Below are positions 38,971 through 47,145 of a stretch of DNA of 64,000 nucleotides, in pieces. The notes below the pieces were generated by a model. That model saw only the letters and a list, made by a program, of their open reading frames with translations. It was not told the DNA's origin and ran no database searches. Position numbers and translations under genes: made by a program. Every line of letters starts with the position of its first letter. Position 1 is the stretch's first letter. The stretch spans positions 1-64,000 of the forward strand of contig NZ_CP045492.1 in the NCBI RefSeq assembly GCF_015500055.1, in the 5' to 3' direction. This DNA comes from Mesorhizobium sp. NBSH29. GTDB taxonomy: Bacteria > Pseudomonadota > Alphaproteobacteria > Rhizobiales > Rhizobiaceae.

Positions 38971-40116
38971 CTAACGATCAAGCACCGAGCGAATTTCAAT
39001 TGCCTGCGAGCGGGCGCGTAGCAAGTGGAAGCCCATATTGGCCAGATGCGACGGAAACAGTGCGCTGGATTCATTCCCGTTGGAAATAAGCCCCGGCTGC
39101 ATGTTGAGTGCGGTTCTCAGCTGTTCTTCCATACGCGTCCACAAGGTGGTTAGGTTGCGTTCCTGAATAATCGCTGAGAAATCCGCCCGCGTTCCTCTTA
39201 GAATACCGTAATAGGCATACAGCTGACCGTAGGCGAACCAGAACCGGTCGTCAGCCCTCAAATCAAACCATCCGGCGTTAGAAGCTTCCATGCGTGCCCG
39301 TAGGATGTCGGAAGTTGAACCCATGTCGCCGGAAATACGGTCGAGGAACTGCATGAGATTGTCGGCGCGTGCGTCGAAGGTCGACTGGCACTTTTCCAGG
39401 CTGGTATTGAAAGCGCGAAGCTTACGTTCAGCCTCACGATAAACACTCGGGGTGGGGCGCGTAGGACCGCGCCAGCCGATATACCAGGCGTTCTCGTCCC
39501 AGGCTAGGCCGGTGCGCGCCTCCTGCAGATTCTGGTCAATCTGCGAGGTTCCGCGTGCGCGCCCTAGCGTATCAACCAGCTCGGTGGTCGTCCGGCGCAG
39601 AACCTGATTGATGCCAAGCTGGAACGCGGCCTTGTTGTCCAGAAACGGCGTATGGTTCCACGCGATGCCAAAGAAGCCGAGCTTCGACGCCAGCATGGAG
39701 GGTATCCAGGCGTTCTGATTGACATTGAAGTCGATGAGATCCGCCGTCACATCCACGATTTCCGAACGGTTACAGACATTCGTGGCGGGCGACGTCGCCC
39801 CACCGGTGGCGCTAGCCGAAGCATCGCCCGTGCCGGCAGGAACAGGTTCACCCGCTAGCACTTTTTCCTTAGCGCGCTCCACCGAATAATCGGGGTTGAA
39901 ATTGGCCCAATGCTGCGTCTGCCAGATGAAATAGGCATAGAATGCCACGAACGCGAAGATGAGTGCGCCGACAATTGCCCGCAAAATCCAGCCTTTGCCG
40001 GCATACCAGCGTCCGACCCAAAGGAACGGCCATAAGATCACGCCGACCAACAGACCGATACCACGCCCGATCCACTGGAAGACGCGCACGAAGAAATTCA
40101 CGATCGGGTCAAGCAT
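38971..40116 (-). CDS. DUF2333 membrane protein
   Basis: This 381-aa protein matches the DUF2333 family. The N-terminus has two hydrophobic segments (about 15-35 and 43-66), then a low-complexity Ala/Thr/Gly stretch (about 95-112), then a soluble helical domain, most likely periplasmic or cytoplasmic depending on topology. The family has no known function. It is the last gene of the uncharacterised run that starts near 46.3 kb; 108 bases separate it from the DUF6638-like gene. Confidence 0.85.
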   Translation of the reverse strand: MLDPIVNFFVRVFQWIGRGIGLLVGVILWPFLWVGRWYAGKGWILRAIVGALIFAFVAFYAYFIWQTQHWANFNPDYSVERAKEKVLAGEPVPAGTGDASASATGGATSPATNVCNRSEIVDVTADLIDFNVNQNAWIPSMLASKLGFFGIAWNHTPFLDNKAAFQLGINQVLRRTTTELVDTLGRARGTSQIDQNLQEARTGLAWDENAWYIGWRGPTRPTPSVYREAERKLRAFNTSLEKCQSTFDARADNLMQFLDRISGDMGSTSDILRARMEASNAGWFDLRADDRFWFAYGQLYAYYGILRGTRADFSAIIQERNLTTLWTRMEEQLRTALNMQPGLISNGNESSALFPSHLANMGFHLLRARSQAIEIRSVLDR

Positions 40117-40224
40117 GGTGCATCATCCTGAAGAGCGATCCCAAAAAGGTGCGGACTTTTTGGAAAAGATTGTGAAAACAAGGACCTCGAGCAGGCTGCA
40201 GACTCAAATCAACTAAACCCTGCA

Positions 40225-41511
40225 CTAGTCGGACAAACCGTAGAGACGCATTCGAAACGCCTCCTTTTCCTTCAAATATGTTGTTTTTAGAAGCTCCACA
40301 ACCGCAGCCCTCTGGGACTCATTGTAGCTTTCATAGTTCTTGTAGAAACCTTGCTTGTTAAAAACGTATGTCGAGACGAAGTCGGTCGGCACAAATTCCG
40401 AGATCAGGCGGTTTGTCAGCCATGCGTCGGGATGCGCCGGCGCGGCGCGCACGACAAGAAACCGCTTTCCGGGCTCCACGTCATCCAGCTTGATCTGTCC
40501 GAGCTGCGCTATCTCGCGCTTGGCTGCGTTGAGGAACGGAAACGCTCCGTCACTGTTGATGATGTCAGCATGCGCGTGGATCCATGTTTGCAGCCAAACC
40601 TTGTCGGCGCGCGCAATGTTGCGCTGCGGTTCGCTCTGATGGATGAGCGACCTGATGACCATTTCCGCTCGGTGTTCAAGATAGCCAGAACTCTCCACCC
40701 ACGAAGCGCGCGGCAGTTCAATGCGCCCTGTCTCAGCCAGGAACCGGAAAACAAGCTCCGTGTCATTGATCGACAGATAACTCACCTGCCATGGCCGTGA
40801 ACGGCGGAATCCCGGCGCCGATGGATCACTGATCACCGTCGTCATGCCCGGATCAATGAATACGTAAAGCCCGCCAAAATGGCTGGTCCAGAAAGCATTA
40901 TGCCGGAAGATCACATGATCCGGCACCAGAGCATTCTCGCGAATATCGCCGGTCACCTTGGCCAGTTCGACCATGCGTTCAAGCATCCCATTGTCGCGCC
41001 AGGCGTCAGGCTCTTGCTTCAGCCGGTCAATAAGGGTGGCAAGCTCGGATGCTTTGCCCAGCACATCCTCGGCAGACAAAACCTTGAACTCAACCTGGTT
41101 GATCGACAGCAAATCCTCAATGTCTTCAACCTTTGAGACCGAATCCTCGATCTCGCCATAGATGACATCCTTGATCGTCAGCGCGTCGATTGCGCGGCTG
41201 TTCTTCGTCATGAACTCGTAGAGAAGCTGCGACGTGTTTGAGAACGCCGTATGCACCACAGGCAATCCAGCCTGAGAGGGTGTCAGAATGATGAAGCGCC
41301 GGTTGATTTCATTGGGGTCGAGATAAAGCAAATCCCCCAACTCCTCCGCCACCTGTGGCGAGAAACCCGTTCGGTCGATCTCGAAACTCTCAAGCTCGGT
41401 TGGCTTCAACCCAAAAGCCACGAGCGCCTTGTTGTAGCGCGCAATCAGATGCGGCTCATCCACCTGCTGCAAGCGGCCATAAATGAGGTCATTGTCGCGC
41501 AAGAGGTTCAT
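40225..41511 (-). CDS. DUF6638-like protein of an uncharacterised cluster
   Basis: This 428-aa soluble protein has no signal peptide or membrane helix. I believe it belongs to DUF6638, from memory of such proteins beside AAA+ ATPases in alphaproteobacteria. It begins MNLLRDNDLIYGRLQQVDEP. I chose ATG 41511 because GGAGGGGG lies just upstream; the GTG at 41526 would place that site inside the coding sequence. It follows the AAA+ gene by 39 bases. No catalytic motif is apparent. Confidence 0.82.
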   Translation of the reverse strand: MNLLRDNDLIYGRLQQVDEPHLIARYNKALVAFGLKPTELESFEIDRTGFSPQVAEELGDLLYLDPNEINRRFIILTPSQAGLPVVHTAFSNTSQLLYEFMTKNSRAIDALTIKDVIYGEIEDSVSKVEDIEDLLSINQVEFKVLSAEDVLGKASELATLIDRLKQEPDAWRDNGMLERMVELAKVTGDIRENALVPDHVIFRHNAFWTSHFGGLYVFIDPGMTTVISDPSAPGFRRSRPWQVSYLSINDTELVFRFLAETGRIELPRASWVESSGYLEHRAEMVIRSLIHQSEPQRNIARADKVWLQTWIHAHADIINSDGAFPFLNAAKREIAQLGQIKLDDVEPGKRFLVVRAAPAHPDAWLTNRLISEFVPTDFVSTYVFNKQGFYKNYESYNESQRAAVVELLKTTYLKEKEAFRMRLYGLSD

Positions 41512-41550
41512 TATCCCCCTCCCCACTGGTCGGTATCATGGCGCACAACC

Positions 41551-43461
41551 TCAAGCATTCCATAGACCTTTTTTCTGCAACTCCGCCATTTCGCGCGCCG
41601 CACGTTCGCGCAGCCGCGTATCGCGCAAAAGCTTTTCCACGGCGGCATCGTCAGACTTGTCGGCATAGCGGAATTCAGAATCGGCGTAGCGGTTCACCTC
41701 CTGCATCACCATGTCCATGTTGAAGGGCCCGCGCAGTTCCTCGATCATCGCCTTCTTGGTATCGTAGTCCTTATGCAGAAAATGCTCTGGCGCTTCGAAC
41801 CAATCGTCTGGCAGCTCGATATCCATCGCCCGCATCTTGATTGCATCCGTAACATTCTTGATAGCACGGCCCGTAAAGCGCGGTTCGGCTTCCTTGATCA
41901 TGTGCAGATAGGTGCCAATATCCGCCATCGTCTTTGGTTGGCCCTGCTCCTTCAGGAAGCGCTCATGAACGCGCACGAGCCCCTCTTCCTGCGGCTTCGC
42001 ATGGGTATCATAGGCCTCGTTCACCGCCCGCTGGATTTCCTGCGCGGCATAGAGATCATGCTTGCCCAGATCAATTTTATGGTTCTTGCCGGCTAGCAGA
42101 ACGAAAATATCAATATAATCATCTCGCGTCTGTGGCCCGTCCACCAACCAACGCGCACTGGCTCGCTGGCGCAGCGCATCATCCACATTCTCCGGATAGT
42201 TGGAAAACATGCCGAATGAGCAATTGCCGCGCACCACCGTCGAAGCGCCTGCAAACGCATCCATCAAAACACCGGTAATTTCCTGCTGCCCAGCCGAAGC
42301 GCGGTCATCCGAGCGTTTGGCCGCAACTTGGTCGATATCATCAATCGTGCCAAAGCCAATGACGCGCGGGTTCAACACATTGGTGATGAACTGACGGCAG
42401 TTCTGGCCGGACTTGCCCTGATAGGACGAGATCTGGTCAACGCCGAAATTCTCATAGAAAAACGGATAGCCGCCCACCTGCGCATAATTATTGACAAGGC
42501 CAGCTATCATCTGGATCAGCGTCGTCTTGCCTGTGCCCGGCGCGCCATCACCGATAAATGTGAACAGGAATCCGCCAAGCTCAACAAACGGGTTCAGCTC
42601 CCGGTCGAAATCATAAGCGACAAGCATTTTGGCAAGTTTGACCGACTGGTATTTGGCAATGTGGTTGCCAACCACTTCCTCCGGTTTCTTGAACGTCATC
42701 ACCAACGGTTTTGAGCGCTTGCCCGGCGCAATGTCGAAACCATCCAGCGTGAAATCGTCGGCATCAATGCGGATATGCGCATTATCGAATGCGCCAAGCC
42801 CGTCAAAGCGACCCCTGCGCGCTAGAAGTCCATCAATCGCGGTTCGCGCAAACGCGCGCGCACGCCTTGCCAGATCAGCCTCATCCTTGACCCCTGCAAT
42901 GGCGCGGTCGAGACCCGCAATCAGGCTCTTTAAGGCATCCTGTGGGCTGTCGAACAGGAACTCCGGGGCGCCAATATCATTCGGCGCGTCACCATCGCTG
43001 TCGATCAGCTGAAGCAGATAGCTGGCGAGGCTGAAGGCTGCAACATAGGCTGAGGCTGAGAGAAGCTTCTTGAAATGGCTCGCATCCTCCCCCTCAAGCG
43101 GCGCCCGCGAGTTCCTTGCCTGCAACGCTTCCAGATCCGTGCTTTCAGCAAACACACCAGCCACCGCCAGCGCCACCGCAATGCCTCGGCGAGCACGGTA
43201 GAGCACACTATGCTGGCCAATCGACATCAACTGGTCGTCAGGCCTGATGCCTGCAACCGTTTTCACCAGTTCCACTTCACGCGTATTACGCAACGCGCTC
43301 GTTGAAACGGTCGAGACAAACCGCCGTCCTGTGCCGGCAAGCGCCGTGCCGGATTTCGCCGAGGCATCCTCCATCACCACGAAGCGTGTGATCATCAATT
43401 GCGCAGTAGCGCGGTGCTTCTCAATATCGGCTTCGGCAATCGTGGTCAGACCTGCGTCCAT
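41551..43461 (-). CDS. AAA+ ATPase of an uncharacterised cluster
   Basis: This 636-aa protein has an unassigned N-terminal region (about 1-300) and an AAA+ module. Walker A is GDGAPGTGKTTLI near residue 310. Walker B is IGFGTIDDIDQ near 373, with IDDID in place of the usual hhhhDE. Sensor 1 and the arginine-finger region follow (MFSNYPENVDDALRQRASAR). The N-terminal part includes a helical segment (YVAAFSLASYLLQL) that is only weakly hydrophobic. It is the only enzyme recognisable in the cluster and is likely the motor. The substrate is unknown. Confidence 0.88.
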   Translation of the reverse strand: MDAGLTTIAEADIEKHRATAQLMITRFVVMEDASAKSGTALAGTGRRFVSTVSTSALRNTREVELVKTVAGIRPDDQLMSIGQHSVLYRARRGIAVALAVAGVFAESTDLEALQARNSRAPLEGEDASHFKKLLSASAYVAAFSLASYLLQLIDSDGDAPNDIGAPEFLFDSPQDALKSLIAGLDRAIAGVKDEADLARRARAFARTAIDGLLARRGRFDGLGAFDNAHIRIDADDFTLDGFDIAPGKRSKPLVMTFKKPEEVVGNHIAKYQSVKLAKMLVAYDFDRELNPFVELGGFLFTFIGDGAPGTGKTTLIQMIAGLVNNYAQVGGYPFFYENFGVDQISSYQGKSGQNCRQFITNVLNPRVIGFGTIDDIDQVAAKRSDDRASAGQQEITGVLMDAFAGASTVVRGNCSFGMFSNYPENVDDALRQRASARWLVDGPQTRDDYIDIFVLLAGKNHKIDLGKHDLYAAQEIQRAVNEAYDTHAKPQEEGLVRVHERFLKEQGQPKTMADIGTYLHMIKEAEPRFTGRAIKNVTDAIKMRAMDIELPDDWFEAPEHFLHKDYDTKKAMIEELRGPFNMDMVMQEVNRYADSEFRYADKSDDAAVEKLLRDTRLRERAAREMAELQKKGLWNA

Positions 43462-43517
43462 GTCATGTGCCCCGCAAAATGATTGGCAAACCTGAGAGGT
43501 CCTTTGCCGAACCTGCC

Positions 43518-44663
43518 TCAGACATCTGAAATCACCTGCCCATTGGACAGAATGTGAACCTCGTAATCCTTGAATATCTTCTGCGCTTCACCGGCAGCAT
43601 AAAGGACCTGATAGGCTTCATGCGGGATAAGTGCATGCTTCTCGAAAGCAGAAACGCCCTGCCTGGCGGCTTCCAGATCGTCCGTATTGATAAAGAATTC
43701 CTCGGATGCAGGCTCGCTGGACCATAGCCCCTTACGGCCAGGCTTTTCGGATTTGGAATAAACCTCCTGTACGGTCCAGGTAAGAAGCCATGCATTTTCA
43801 GGCTTGCGAACCTTGGCCAGCACTTCCGAAACCGTCGAATTATGCTCTGTTATACCCGCTGAATAAAACGGGCCAAGAACAACGCGCCGCAATTGCTTGG
43901 GGTGCAGCTCCGCAAAGTCCTTGTCGAGATTTCCGGCAATCGTCGCTGGTGACAGCGTATAGGCAGAGCTCTTCTCGGTAAAATCATCGAACCGATGCGC
44001 AAGCTCGGGATTGAGCAACCCCTCCACCGGCAGCGGAATATTCACCTTCTCATTCAGCCGACCATTCGCCCCAACCAATTGGCGGATCATGCCTTCGGAA
44101 GAATCTTCCACCGTCGCCATATAAATCAGCGGCAGGTTCGCGCTGCCATCATAGCTTGCCCAATGCACCAGATAATATGGCCGCATGGTCTTGGGATTGA
44201 CTGAAACCTTCACCGTCTGTGCCAGCGAAAAGGAGCCGAAGGTTTCCCCATCCTTGATGTCTTCCAGATAGAGCCGCTCAGCCATGGATTGCTGGAGGCT
44301 TGCTGGAAATTCCTTATGCCGCAAAATGAAATCGGCCATTTCTGCACGCAATGTGTCTGGCTCGGGTAGGCTGGCCAGCCGCTGCTTGGCCTGTCGCCGG
44401 TCGTTTTCCAGTTCCAGAACATTCTGGAAAACCGGAAATCCGCTCTCCGCCCGTGAGATCTTGAACGTCGCCATGAACGCCAGACGGTTGCGCCAGGAGG
44501 AGAACGATTTCTCCAATTGCGCTATATATTCAGCCACCACCTTCGCCACGAGATCATGGCGATAGAGCGTTGAACGCTCGTCGCGCATATAGATGTCCAG
44601 CCCCTTCAACGCAGCTGAGATAGCGTCGAAATAGCGTGTGGCAGCGTCAGATTCGGGTGTCAT
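43518..44663 (-). CDS. hypothetical protein of an uncharacterised cluster
   Basis: I do not recognise this 381-aa soluble protein. The N-terminal 120 residues are helical and charged (YFDAISAALKGLDIYMRDER; LFMATF-like core). The middle and C-terminus look like mixed alpha/beta (VHWASYDGSANLPLIYMATV). No signal peptide, membrane helix or catalytic motif is evident. It sits 56 bases upstream of the AAA+ gene and 11 bases downstream of the coiled-coil gene, so it is very likely in one operon with them. Confidence 0.8.
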   Translation of the reverse strand: MTPESDAATRYFDAISAALKGLDIYMRDERSTLYRHDLVAKVVAEYIAQLEKSFSSWRNRLAFMATFKISRAESGFPVFQNVLELENDRRQAKQRLASLPEPDTLRAEMADFILRHKEFPASLQQSMAERLYLEDIKDGETFGSFSLAQTVKVSVNPKTMRPYYLVHWASYDGSANLPLIYMATVEDSSEGMIRQLVGANGRLNEKVNIPLPVEGLLNPELAHRFDDFTEKSSAYTLSPATIAGNLDKDFAELHPKQLRRVVLGPFYSAGITEHNSTVSEVLAKVRKPENAWLLTWTVQEVYSKSEKPGRKGLWSSEPASEEFFINTDDLEAARQGVSAFEKHALIPHEAYQVLYAAGEAQKIFKDYEVHILSNGQVISDV

Positions 44664-44674
44664 GCTGGGCGAAA

Positions 44675-45763
44675 TTACTGCTTCACATAGGCGGCGGCGT
44701 TGTGCTTCTTCATCACATCGTCAAATCGCCGGGCAAAGGCATCATCAGCAAGCTTCTTGCGCCGTTGAATATCCGCCGTCGTCACCATGTTCTTCTCATG
44801 CTGTTCCAGAAGATCTCCAATATGACGCTGCGCGGCAGCACCAATACCGGCCATCGTTTCCTCGGCCGTGTTGTCCACCTGGCTGCCCAGCGTGTTGATC
44901 TTATGGGCAACATCCTGCTGCGCTGCCGTCTTCAGTGAATCTTCAAGCGCCTTGTAGAGAACGATGCGCTGCTCCGTGTCGATGGTCAGCTTGTTGATGA
45001 GGGTATTCTGCGCTGCGATCTGGTTGTTGAGGGAATCCACGAATGTCTGGAACATCGACGTATAGCGCTCCAGCGTCTGGCTCTCGGCCAACAGTTCCTG
45101 CTCCTTGGCCTGCGCCTCATTGTAATCTGTCGCCAGCTTGGAGCGCTCGCCTTCCAGCTGTGCGCGATCCTTCTGATTGGTTGAAGCTGAAATGCGGTTC
45201 TCTATGTCGAGAAGCGCCGGGTTAAGCTCTTCAATGCGCTTTTGCGTCGTTTCGAGCTTTTCCATCGCGGCCTTGCGCCGTTCAATCACCTTCGTCAGGC
45301 TAGCTTCCGATGTTTGATAACGAGCTTCCAAAACTTGCTTCTGGTTGGTCAAAATTCCGGTAATCTTATCCGATTTGGACAAAAGCTCCTGCAAATTGCC
45401 CGCAAGCGACATGTTGCGCACCCGCTCGCTGCGCATGCGTTGCTTGCGCTGCTGGGAGAATATGCCGACAAACTTTTCCCAGCCCGAATAGCTCTTCATG
45501 CTCTCAAATTCGGACCCGAACACATTTGTCGCGTCCTCGAGCCCGATGATAAGATCAGCAATGTTGGTTTCCATCACCTTCTGCTGTGTGAGAACGTCCT
45601 GGATGCGGGCGTTCTCCACATCAAAATCCGCCTGACCAATCGTCTGGTCCGTCCTGGCGAGCTTGTCCAGCACGCTGCTCGATTGCTCCATCTTCGTCCG
45701 CATGTCTTTTACAACAGCTTCTGTCTGGGCAATCTCAGTGTCGAAATTCTGCAGCGTGGCCAT
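44675..45763 (-). CDS. coiled-coil protein, possibly TelA-like
   Basis: This 362-aa protein is almost wholly helical and heptad-rich. The segment WEKFVGIFSQQRKQRMRSER (about 95-114) and the later QIAAQNTLINKLTIDTEQRI recall toxic-anion-resistance (TelA) proteins, but the match is only by eye. No membrane helix is seen. AGGAGA lies 6 bases before the ATG. PspA- or TelA-like proteins often work with AAA+ partners at the membrane, and this one is two genes from an AAA+ ATPase. Confidence 0.8.
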   Translation of the reverse strand: MATLQNFDTEIAQTEAVVKDMRTKMEQSSSVLDKLARTDQTIGQADFDVENARIQDVLTQQKVMETNIADLIIGLEDATNVFGSEFESMKSYSGWEKFVGIFSQQRKQRMRSERVRNMSLAGNLQELLSKSDKITGILTNQKQVLEARYQTSEASLTKVIERRKAAMEKLETTQKRIEELNPALLDIENRISASTNQKDRAQLEGERSKLATDYNEAQAKEQELLAESQTLERYTSMFQTFVDSLNNQIAAQNTLINKLTIDTEQRIVLYKALEDSLKTAAQQDVAHKINTLGSQVDNTAEETMAGIGAAAQRHIGDLLEQHEKNMVTTADIQRRKKLADDAFARRFDDVMKKHNAAAYVKQ

Positions 45764-45832
45764 GCGTCTCTCCTAGAGGGTGGCGTCAAGTCAGGCGAAT
45801 ATAGGGGGAGCCTGTGACGAAGGGAAGTTCGC

Positions 45833-46303
45833 TCAGTTCAGCTTGTCTTCTCCGCCATCGTCAATTTCGTCTTCGTCCAAACCATCTTCGCCGTCACCGC
45901 TATAAATCGTAACAGCAAGTGTTAGGCCAAGGGCTGCGCAGCGTGCAACGAGTGCAGGCGCAAACGTAAATGTGCGCCCTTCATCGCCACTGATAACTTC
46001 AAACCCATTGTCGATTGTTGCCAACTCCAGCCCCTTCCACTGAGCCAGTGCATCCCCTGAAAGCTTTTCGATCCGTGTCACAATGGCATCCACCACTGCG
46101 GCAGGATCGTCAAAATCCACGCTGTCATCGTCAAGTTCAAAGCGTGCTTCGAACAATTCGCTTTCGGCGCTCGCATCGTCAGAATCATCATCATCGAGCG
46201 TATAAAAGCCCAGCGATGTAAGTGCCTCGACAAGTCCGTCAAGCTTCTGCTTTCCCGCGAGATCAAGATCTGCATTGAGAAATCGCGTTCTGAAATCGCT
46301 CAT
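45833..46303 (-). CDS. highly acidic hypothetical protein
   Basis: This 156-aa protein is extremely rich in Asp and Glu, with an acidic stretch near residues 38-62 and an acidic C-terminal tail of about 20 residues. Between them is a mixed alpha/beta core (ATIDNGFEVISGDEGRTFTF). No family is recognised. AGGGA precedes the ATG. It overlaps the tdk stop codon (ATGA) and leads the uncharacterised run; 69 bases separate it from the coiled-coil gene. Confidence 0.8.
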   Translation of the reverse strand: MSDFRTRFLNADLDLAGKQKLDGLVEALTSLGFYTLDDDDSDDASAESELFEARFELDDDSVDFDDPAAVVDAIVTRIEKLSGDALAQWKGLELATIDNGFEVISGDEGRTFTFAPALVARCAALGLTLAVTIYSGDGEDGLDEDEIDDGGEDKLN

Positions 46304-46929
46304 GGTGTTTCCCTGTTCTGGCCACCAAACCCGATCATGTCGTCAGATTTCTGGCGGCCCATTTCTTCTTCCCAATGCCGGCGGCAGAGCGAAACATATA
46401 CATCCTTGCCGATGGCAACTTGCGCGCCATGGCGCGCGACCTTGCCATCGGGGCCAAGCCTCACCACCATAGTGGCCTTGCGACCACACCTGCAAATAGT
46501 GCGTACCTCGCGCAACTCGTCGGCAACAGCAAGCAGAGCCTGCGATCCGGGAAACAGTTTGCCACGAAAGTCGGTTCGCAGCCCATAGCACATGACAGGA
46601 ATTCCCAGTCGGTCGGCCACGCGTGCCAGCTGCCACACCTGCTCTTCTTCCAAAAACTGCGCCTCGTCTACGAACACGCAATGCAGATGGGTATGGCAAT
46701 GATGCTCGCCAATGCGTGCGAAGAGGTCATCGCCCTCGCGAAACAGCTCCGCATCCGCTTCCAGCCCGATACGCGACGTGATCGCGCCGGTATCGTTCGT
46801 TTTGCGATAATGGCCAGCCACTAACAGCATGGTCGCCATGCCGCGCTCGCGGTAATTGTAGGAAGCTTGCAAAAGCATGGTGGTTTTGCCGGCATTCATT
46901 GTCGCATAGTGGAAATAGAGCTTCGCCAT
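46300..46929 (-). CDS. tdk: thymidine kinase
   Basis: This salvage enzyme phosphorylates thymidine to dTMP. It has 209 aa and is of the type II (TK1-like) family: P-loop MNAGKTTMLL near residue 11, VFVDEAQFL near 85 and a Zn-binding Cys/His set (ICRCGRK and SLCRRH). The start ATG 46929 gives the usual N-terminus AKLYFHYATMNAGKT. The frame opens upstream but without homology. Its stop overlaps the acidic-protein gene, so it is coupled to the uncharacterised cluster. Confidence 0.95.
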   Translation of the reverse strand: MAKLYFHYATMNAGKTTMLLQASYNYRERGMATMLLVAGHYRKTNDTGAITSRIGLEADAELFREGDDLFARIGEHHCHTHLHCVFVDEAQFLEEEQVWQLARVADRLGIPVMCYGLRTDFRGKLFPGSQALLAVADELREVRTICRCGRKATMVVRLGPDGKVARHGAQVAIGKDVYVSLCRRHWEEEMGRQKSDDMIGFGGQNRETP

Positions 46930-47145
46930 GGCGCCTGTCTTACTCAAACCCTTGTCAGCCGGGGAGTCCCATTGCGCATCACATCCACCGAAAAGAGCGG
47001 CTTGTCGTTCCGAAACCACGTTTCGACGCGTCCAGAAAGGTCATGGCGCTTGAATACGCAACAGAATGATGTTTGGCTTGAACAAATCCGGCGCCGTAAA
47101 CAGCAGTGCTGAGCCAAACAAGAATTCCAAATGGGAGCAGATACA

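Follow-up and report, generated by a model that had tools for sequence, protein, structure and literature searches.

The 64,000-nucleotide stretch of Mesorhizobium sp. NBSH29 DNA analysed here (contig NZ_CP045492.1, positions 1 to 64,000, forward strand; 'the window') contains a run of seven genes between 38971 and 46929, and the question is whether these encode one machine and, if so, what it acts upon. An earlier note, made from the sequence, had proposed that all seven form a machine at the inner membrane. Its description of the locus was accurate, in that the open reading frames (ORFs) all lie on the minus strand at the places it gave and the first two overlap by 4 bases. The functional unit is smaller, a four-gene cassette lying between tdk and the gene for a DUF2333 membrane protein. 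The cassette encodes a coiled-coil protein, CC362 (44675-45763), a 381-amino acid protein, U381 (43518-44663), an AAA+ ATPase (41551-43461) and a DUF6638 protein (40225-41511 from the preferred ATG start, or 40225-41526 from a GTG).

The grouping of these four central genes exceeds chance. Among Pseudomonadota genomes, DUF6638 was found in 26 of the 398 drawn; the ATPase profile matched 26 of 396, and these were the same 26 genomes. All four core genes were present in each of 20 fetched loci of 20 kb, drawn from the window's own family (f1) and from families f17, f8 and f51. A scan of species genomes for relatives of the ATPase yielded at least 526 stretches, and the best 80, a set weighted strongly towards Mesorhizobium, were taken further. 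Single-sequence searches of the best 80 found CC362 in 78, U381 in 78, the ATPase in 79 and DUF6638 in 77. Combining the 20 fetched loci, the best 80 stretches and two more distant genomes gave a set of 102 loci. The four genes were complete in 98 of these, with identical strand and order in 98/98, and the four incomplete loci (L057, L085, L104 and L116) stop at a contig end. The four genes were also together in two loci of further families. Since the four core genes occur together in other genomes, the co-occurrence anticipated by the earlier note for the AAA+, DUF6638-like, 381-amino acid and coiled-coil genes was borne out far beyond the window genome.

The cassette is patchily distributed, the ATPase being found in 7 of 337 genomes of a class-wide draw and in 7 of the 20 nearest relatives of the window genome. 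It is also carried by plasmids, namely Vibrio megaplasmids (L274 and L275), whose ATPase is 39% identical to that of the window, and a Rhizobium leguminosarum plasmid (L276, TP16 pRlX5). Comparison of the window with loci outside its family gave identities of 49-54% for the ATPase, the best-conserved member of the cassette, 37-42% for CC362, 28-32% for DUF6638 and 25-32% for U381. Purifying selection acts on the four core proteins and on DUF2333: between the window and locus L043 the ratio of non-synonymous to synonymous substitution rates (dN/dS) was 0.07-0.14, while for U381 the synonymous rate (dS) was saturated and the corresponding ratio of proportions of differences (pN/pS), 0.14, was used instead. 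On the Vibrio megaplasmids the cassette adjoins mfd and on the R. leguminosarum plasmid it adjoins an rpoD-like sigma-70 gene; both neighbours are linked to transcription, which may be chance.

Family assignments distinguish the ATPase and DUF6638 from the other two core proteins. The ATPase matches Pfam AAA (PF00004) with an E-value of 8.1e-12 (46.2 bits against a cut-off of 21.2) and the DUF6638 protein matches PF20343 at 1e-69 (236 bits against a cut-off of 27), so that the DUF6638-like label given to it from the sequence was correct. No Pfam family was matched by U381 and the coiled-coil matches of CC362 were at chance level only. Searches of NCBIfam, PHROGs and PADLOC added nothing specific for the seven window proteins, and hydropathy predicted no membrane segment in any of the four core proteins.

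The status of the genes flanking the cassette was examined at loci with and without it. The site reads choX, tdk, cassette, DUF2333, fhs, and the order choW-choX (on the opposite strand), tdk, cassette, DUF2333 and fhs is found both in the window, where choX encodes a binding protein of the glycine-betaine type, and in S. meliloti strain Ak57. The window tdk gene (46300-46929, minus strand) has an ATG start, although its ORF could open at 47019, and its product matches the Pfam TK family at 6.6e-44. The DUF2333 gene lies at 38971-40116 and its product matches that family at 1.3e-19. The window's family was represented by 121 genomes, of which 94 have DUF2333 and 71 have the ATPase. Every genome with the ATPase is among the 94, which leaves 23 with DUF2333 and no ATPase. 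Loci without the ATPase were examined in 22 of those 23 (G808, a fragment, was left out) and in two genomes from the phylum draw. Six of these 24 loci read tdk, an altered CC362, DUF2333; in six, tdk adjoins DUF2333 and no cassette gene was found; in nine, choX is next to DUF2333 and tdk is missing; and three were short or rearranged. In one cassette-less genome (L250, G740) the DUF2333 frame appears to be split into two overlapping pieces beside tdk. On the DUF2333 tree, the presence and absence of the ATPase requires nine changes, at least five of which are forced by supported branches. As the cassette may be there or not while the site itself stays the same, tdk and DUF2333 belong to the site; they are conserved neighbours of the cassette and not part of its core.

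The same loci bear on two other explanations of the gene run. One is that the cassette belongs to a nucleotide-metabolism operon tied to tdk, which is present in 69 of the best 80 stretches and in the window overlaps the next gene. This is highly improbable, as tdk stays beside DUF2333 in the six loci from which the cassette is missing altogether, was unmatched in 15 fetched loci outside the window's family and had no match in the stretches from the Vibrio and R. leguminosarum plasmids. That next gene (45833-46303, minus strand) encodes an acidic protein of 156 amino acids, without a Pfam match, which the earlier note took for an adaptor of the machine. It was matched in none of the relatives examined, including the best 80 stretches and the same-genus locus L263; it appears to be an orphan and was dropped from the machine.

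The second explanation is the inner-membrane machine itself, anchored by DUF2333 and serving envelope stress or remodelling. DUF2333 follows DUF6638 in 77 of the best 80 stretches, and the ATPase never occurs without it in the 121 genomes of the window's family (71/71). Outside the Rhizobiaceae-like set, in the other alphaproteobacterial-type loci and f51, a DUF1523 protein with predicted membrane segments was matched in 17 of 17 loci (confirmed by Pfam for two) and an 88-amino acid membrane protein in 15 of the 17. Because the membrane proteins beside the cassette differ between groups, a membrane role is possible. However, as noted above, DUF2333 persists without the ATPase in 23 of 94 genomes, its dN/dS is not raised when the ATPase is missing (see below) and the core proteins have no predicted membrane segment of their own. 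The plasmid stretches of Vibrio and R. leguminosarum contain the four core genes without DUF2333, and neither DUF1523 nor the 88-amino acid protein was matched in one Vibrio stretch or in the R. leguminosarum stretch. The case for an envelope role comes from the neighbouring membrane genes, neither of which was matched in a Vibrio stretch, and we consider this role rather unlikely. In the part of the literature available to us, DUF2333 is named in a type VI neighbourhood.

The ATPase is the member of the cassette with the clearest signs of activity. In total 101 ATPases were compared, 99 of them distinct since two genomes were present twice (L043 is identical to L084 and L045 to L063). Walker A residues K312 and T313, pore loop residues Y347 and G349, Walker B residues D374 and D375, sensor-1 N421 and the arginine-finger positions R431, R433 and R437 were invariant in 101/101; the sensor-1 and arginine-finger roles were assigned by alignment together with the known motifs. 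The same residues are kept in a Vibrio copy and in the R. leguminosarum plasmid copy. The window pore loop reads Y347-Q348-G349 and the Walker B motif reads GTIDDID, so that the unusual IDDID pointed out in the earlier note was read correctly. The catalytic glutamate of a DE motif was not found in any copy; because the second acid is D375 in every one, the DD pair is a family trait and not a defect. DnaA is an active ATPase with a DD Walker B, and thus the motif alone does not rule out hydrolysis. The only match in a profile search of the PDB at E ≤0.001 was the domain of an i-AAA protease (E 3.8e-5), whose YVG pore loop aligns on YQG, and this speaks for a machine that threads or pulls. The protein probably forms a ring and belongs to the remodelling ATPases of the classic AAA family.

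A candidate substrate for the ATPase was indicated by a natural deletion. The CC362 profile found 30 of 396 genomes, these being the 26 mentioned above and four ATPase-less genomes of the window's family. In six genomes in all, U381, the ATPase and DUF6638 are missing as a block between CC362 and DUF2333. The six altered CC362 copies were compared with 30 intact copies, a position being called invariant if it was the same in at least 95% of the latter (106 positions). Between residues 271 and 310 the 19 invariant positions were retained at 8% on average in the altered copies versus 37% elsewhere, the lowest retention among the 88 equally sized contiguous windows. Deletions remove about half of the block (gap fraction 0.49) and what is left of it is rewritten. 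The block lies around LKTAxQQxxAHxIN and is kept in the CC362 of the Vibrio and R. leguminosarum plasmids, both of which have the ATPase. The selective constraint differs as well. For two pairs of altered copies dN/dS was 0.19 and 0.31 compared with 0.06 and 0.07 for two intact pairs, a rise of roughly three- to five-fold, while DUF2333 gave 0.09 in the same altered pairs with no rise. A third altered pair was too divergent for dN/dS and gave a pN/pS of 0.69 versus 0.15 for DUF2333. Thus CC362 differs in sequence with the presence or absence of the other three genes, and the rise in dN/dS without them suggests that they account for much of the constraint on CC362.

These observations suggest a mechanism in which the cassette would be an ATP-driven remodelling motor acting upon CC362, with U381 and DUF6638 as adaptors, to which we give about an even chance on the basis of sequence comparison. 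The ATPase ring would engage the conserved 271-310 block of CC362, and perhaps also its C-terminal tail; the aromatic pore loop would thread or pull the protein, and assemblies of CC362 would be taken apart or reshaped. U381 and DUF6638 may be obligatory adaptors joining the ring to its client. Ring formation, threading, the choice of CC362 as client and the adaptor roles are all inferred.

Several points count against acceptance of this mechanism. Only about half of the 271-310 block is deleted, not all of it, its limits were chosen after viewing the alignment and two more stretches of CC362, residues 1-60 (19%) and 181-225 (17%), are also poorly retained. The six altered copies form one clade on the DUF2333 tree (support 97/93), which also holds two genomes where no CC362 was found; the altered copies need only two to three changes on this tree and may all reflect a single loss event, although their deletions differ in extent. 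CC362 remains under purifying selection without the ATPase and therefore must have some function alone. The change in CC362 could stem from the loss of a contact to U381 or DUF6638 and not to the ATPase, and no relation of CC362 to a filament protein has been established. Lastly, the gap between the ATPase and DUF6638 genes is often wide, so that a single transcript is not assured. In the window the gaps from the acidic gene to DUF2333 are 69, 11, 56, 24 (or 39) and 108 bp. A promoter scan was at chance (3 against 4.4 expected) and so was a terminator scan (12 against 9.9).

The two proposed adaptors were examined as predicted structures. The U381 model has a predicted local distance difference test score (pLDDT) of 89.7, with helices in the N-terminal part and, in the C-terminal part, mostly beta structure laid out in the manner of a T-fold, a weak match. 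No match to U381 at E <0.001 was given by Foldseek and a search of BFVD was likewise negative. With a second aligner, residues 156-355 gave T-fold proteins as the best rows: urate oxidases with Z up to 5.5 (root-mean-square deviation 3.8, 126 aligned), dihydroneopterin aldolases at 4.8-4.9 and a GTP cyclohydrolase and a QueF-like enzyme at 4.0. A Z below 8 is beneath the level of kinship and may reflect only a common arrangement, unrelated chains reaching Z 4.5-5.1. The DUF6638 model (pLDDT 87.7) gave scattered matches with Foldseek and VIA-align, the best at Z 5.1, and none was coherent. Sequence searches of the PDB yielded nothing useful for U381, CC362 or DUF6638, a hit to TRIM25 at E 0.06 being judged chance. 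No paper naming DUF6638 was found in the literature searched and hence neither a partner nor a function described for it came to light. The T-fold resemblance raises the alternative that the ATPase is a chaperone or activase which assembles an enzyme or cofactor protein, either the T-fold-like part of U381 or DUF6638, with CC362 as the scaffold. Given the low Z values, the negative Foldseek search and the fact that a catalytic residue was not identified in the candidate enzyme, this alternative is doubtful.

A remodelling motor acting on CC362 must also be set against the genes found between the ATPase and DUF6638. This junction is 24-39 bp in the window and free of cargo, while over 101 other loci its median is 291 bp, with 37 of the 101 below 150 bp. 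Cargo was counted in 86 loci of Rhizobiaceae type (1757 kb; L030, L032, L034-L036, L042-L126 and L273 are listed for the junction), at least two of which are duplicates. Of the matches to DUF559, a restriction-endonuclease-like family, 31 of 33 fell in the junction, as did 6/6 matches to PIN and 6/6 to Phd. Other occupants are ParE with a helix-turn-helix gene, AbiJ_NTD4, DUF3825, a DUF4145-like gene (below cut-off) and an insertion sequence; in S. meliloti Ak57, which carries the cassette, the junction holds an insertion sequence and a DUF559 gene. The 31 DUF559 matches are not 31 insertions, since the copies are often inherited within Mesorhizobium and some loci are duplicates. Several unrelated families nevertheless recur in this one place and the junction is a hot spot for genes of nucleases and toxin-antitoxin systems.

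Such cargo, together with the patchy distribution and the plasmid copies, would fit a genome-defence or stress platform in which the core controls, or senses for, exchangeable nucleases and toxins. We regard this as unlikely. Many junctions are short, as in the window, and where cargo is present it is shared by descent among related genomes. The best matches in PADLOC-DB 2.0.0 were generic AAA similarities of the ATPase (TRIP13 at 1.8e-4 and IetA at 7e-4), with none for U381, DUF6638, DUF2333 or the acidic protein and an E-value of at least 0.19 for CC362. No relative of the core proteins was found in viral contigs, and the strong purifying selection and the fixed site in Rhizobiaceae-like genomes also speak against a defence platform.

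Four uncharacterised, strongly constrained and widespread proteins can now be handled as a single system whose core is defined, relatives of the ATPase being encoded in at least 526 stretches of one genome collection. The deletion experiment has in effect been done by nature, the same site being found with the cassette, without it and with CC362 left alone. The remodelling mechanism makes a specific prediction, that residues 271-310 of CC362 would be in contact with the ATPase or with its adaptors. S. meliloti is an easily handled plant symbiont. That the gene tagged SMc02733 in this organism lies in the cassette is a guess from the order of tags. A ChvI DNA-binding screen in S. meliloti (PMC3687685) lists an intragenic fragment under the label SMc02733.

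Comparison with known systems started from the suggestion that the coiled-coil protein might be TelA-like. CC362 resembles TelA (PF05816), which is found with XpaC, in length and helical appearance and has a WE-x-x-G motif at the same place in the alignment. However, there was no match of CC362 to the TelA Pfam profile at E ≤1, and a profile-profile comparison gave 2.5%, a result equalled by 5 of 100 block shuffles, so that homology was not established. A sequence search of the PDB with a TelA protein gave nothing useful. In other genomes TelA proper is encoded by a gene of its own away from the cassette, and none was found in the window genome. In a draw of 120 genomes, 21 had TelA and eight of these, all different from the window genome, had the cassette; among the genomes listed, no other cassette genome was seen to lack TelA. 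A link between the two was dropped, as TelA was found in none of the 20 nearest relatives while the ATPase was in seven of them. One TelA locus (L178) of family f17, whose genomes may be Rhodobacter-like, has in a row an XpaC-type gene, TelA, DUF2927, a Band_7_1/SPFH gene with GYF and a zinc-ribbon gene; DUF2927 is also found in L181 and Band_7_1-GYF in L183. We take the gene row at L178 to recall PspA-linked gene sets.

With PspA itself, CC362 gave a weak profile-profile result of 7% against six PspA sequences, over 81 columns of coiled coil only, although none of 60 block shuffles scored as high. No match of CC362 to the PspA (PF04012) or Snf7 Pfam profiles was found at E ≤1, and without a family-level match homology to PspA was not established either.

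The ATPase is more readily placed. It shares with the classic AAA proteins (PF00004; FtsH/Yme1, Cdc48 and the proteasome-activating nucleotidases) the profile, Walker A, an aromatic pore loop, sensor 1 and arginine fingers, as well as its alignment with the i-AAA protease. It differs from them in having aspartate and not glutamate as the second Walker B acid throughout, in an N-terminal part of about 270 amino acids without a Pfam domain and in NCBIfam scores far below the cut-off of every subfamily. An N-terminal MIT domain, as in Vps4-type ATPases, was not found with Pfam at E ≤1, the only matches being NTPase-type and unrelated weak ones.

Gene associations between PspA and AAA+ proteins are reported in PMC11237479. 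The likeness of the cassette to ESCRT-III/Vps4, and to bacterial PspA/Snf7 proteins with an AAA+ partner as described there, is one of logic only: a helical or coiled-coil protein lies beside a classic AAA+ motor and the C-terminal part of the helical protein is tied to the presence of the motor. The cassette differs in its two extra obligatory genes and in the missing MIT domain. It is an improbable idea that the cassette might be an independent bacterial counterpart of the ESCRT-III/Vps4 principle, in which an AAA+ ring with a DD Walker B and two obligatory adaptors would act upon a coiled-coil polymer, spreading both vertically and on plasmids, with the junction as a place where interchangeable nucleases and toxins dock.

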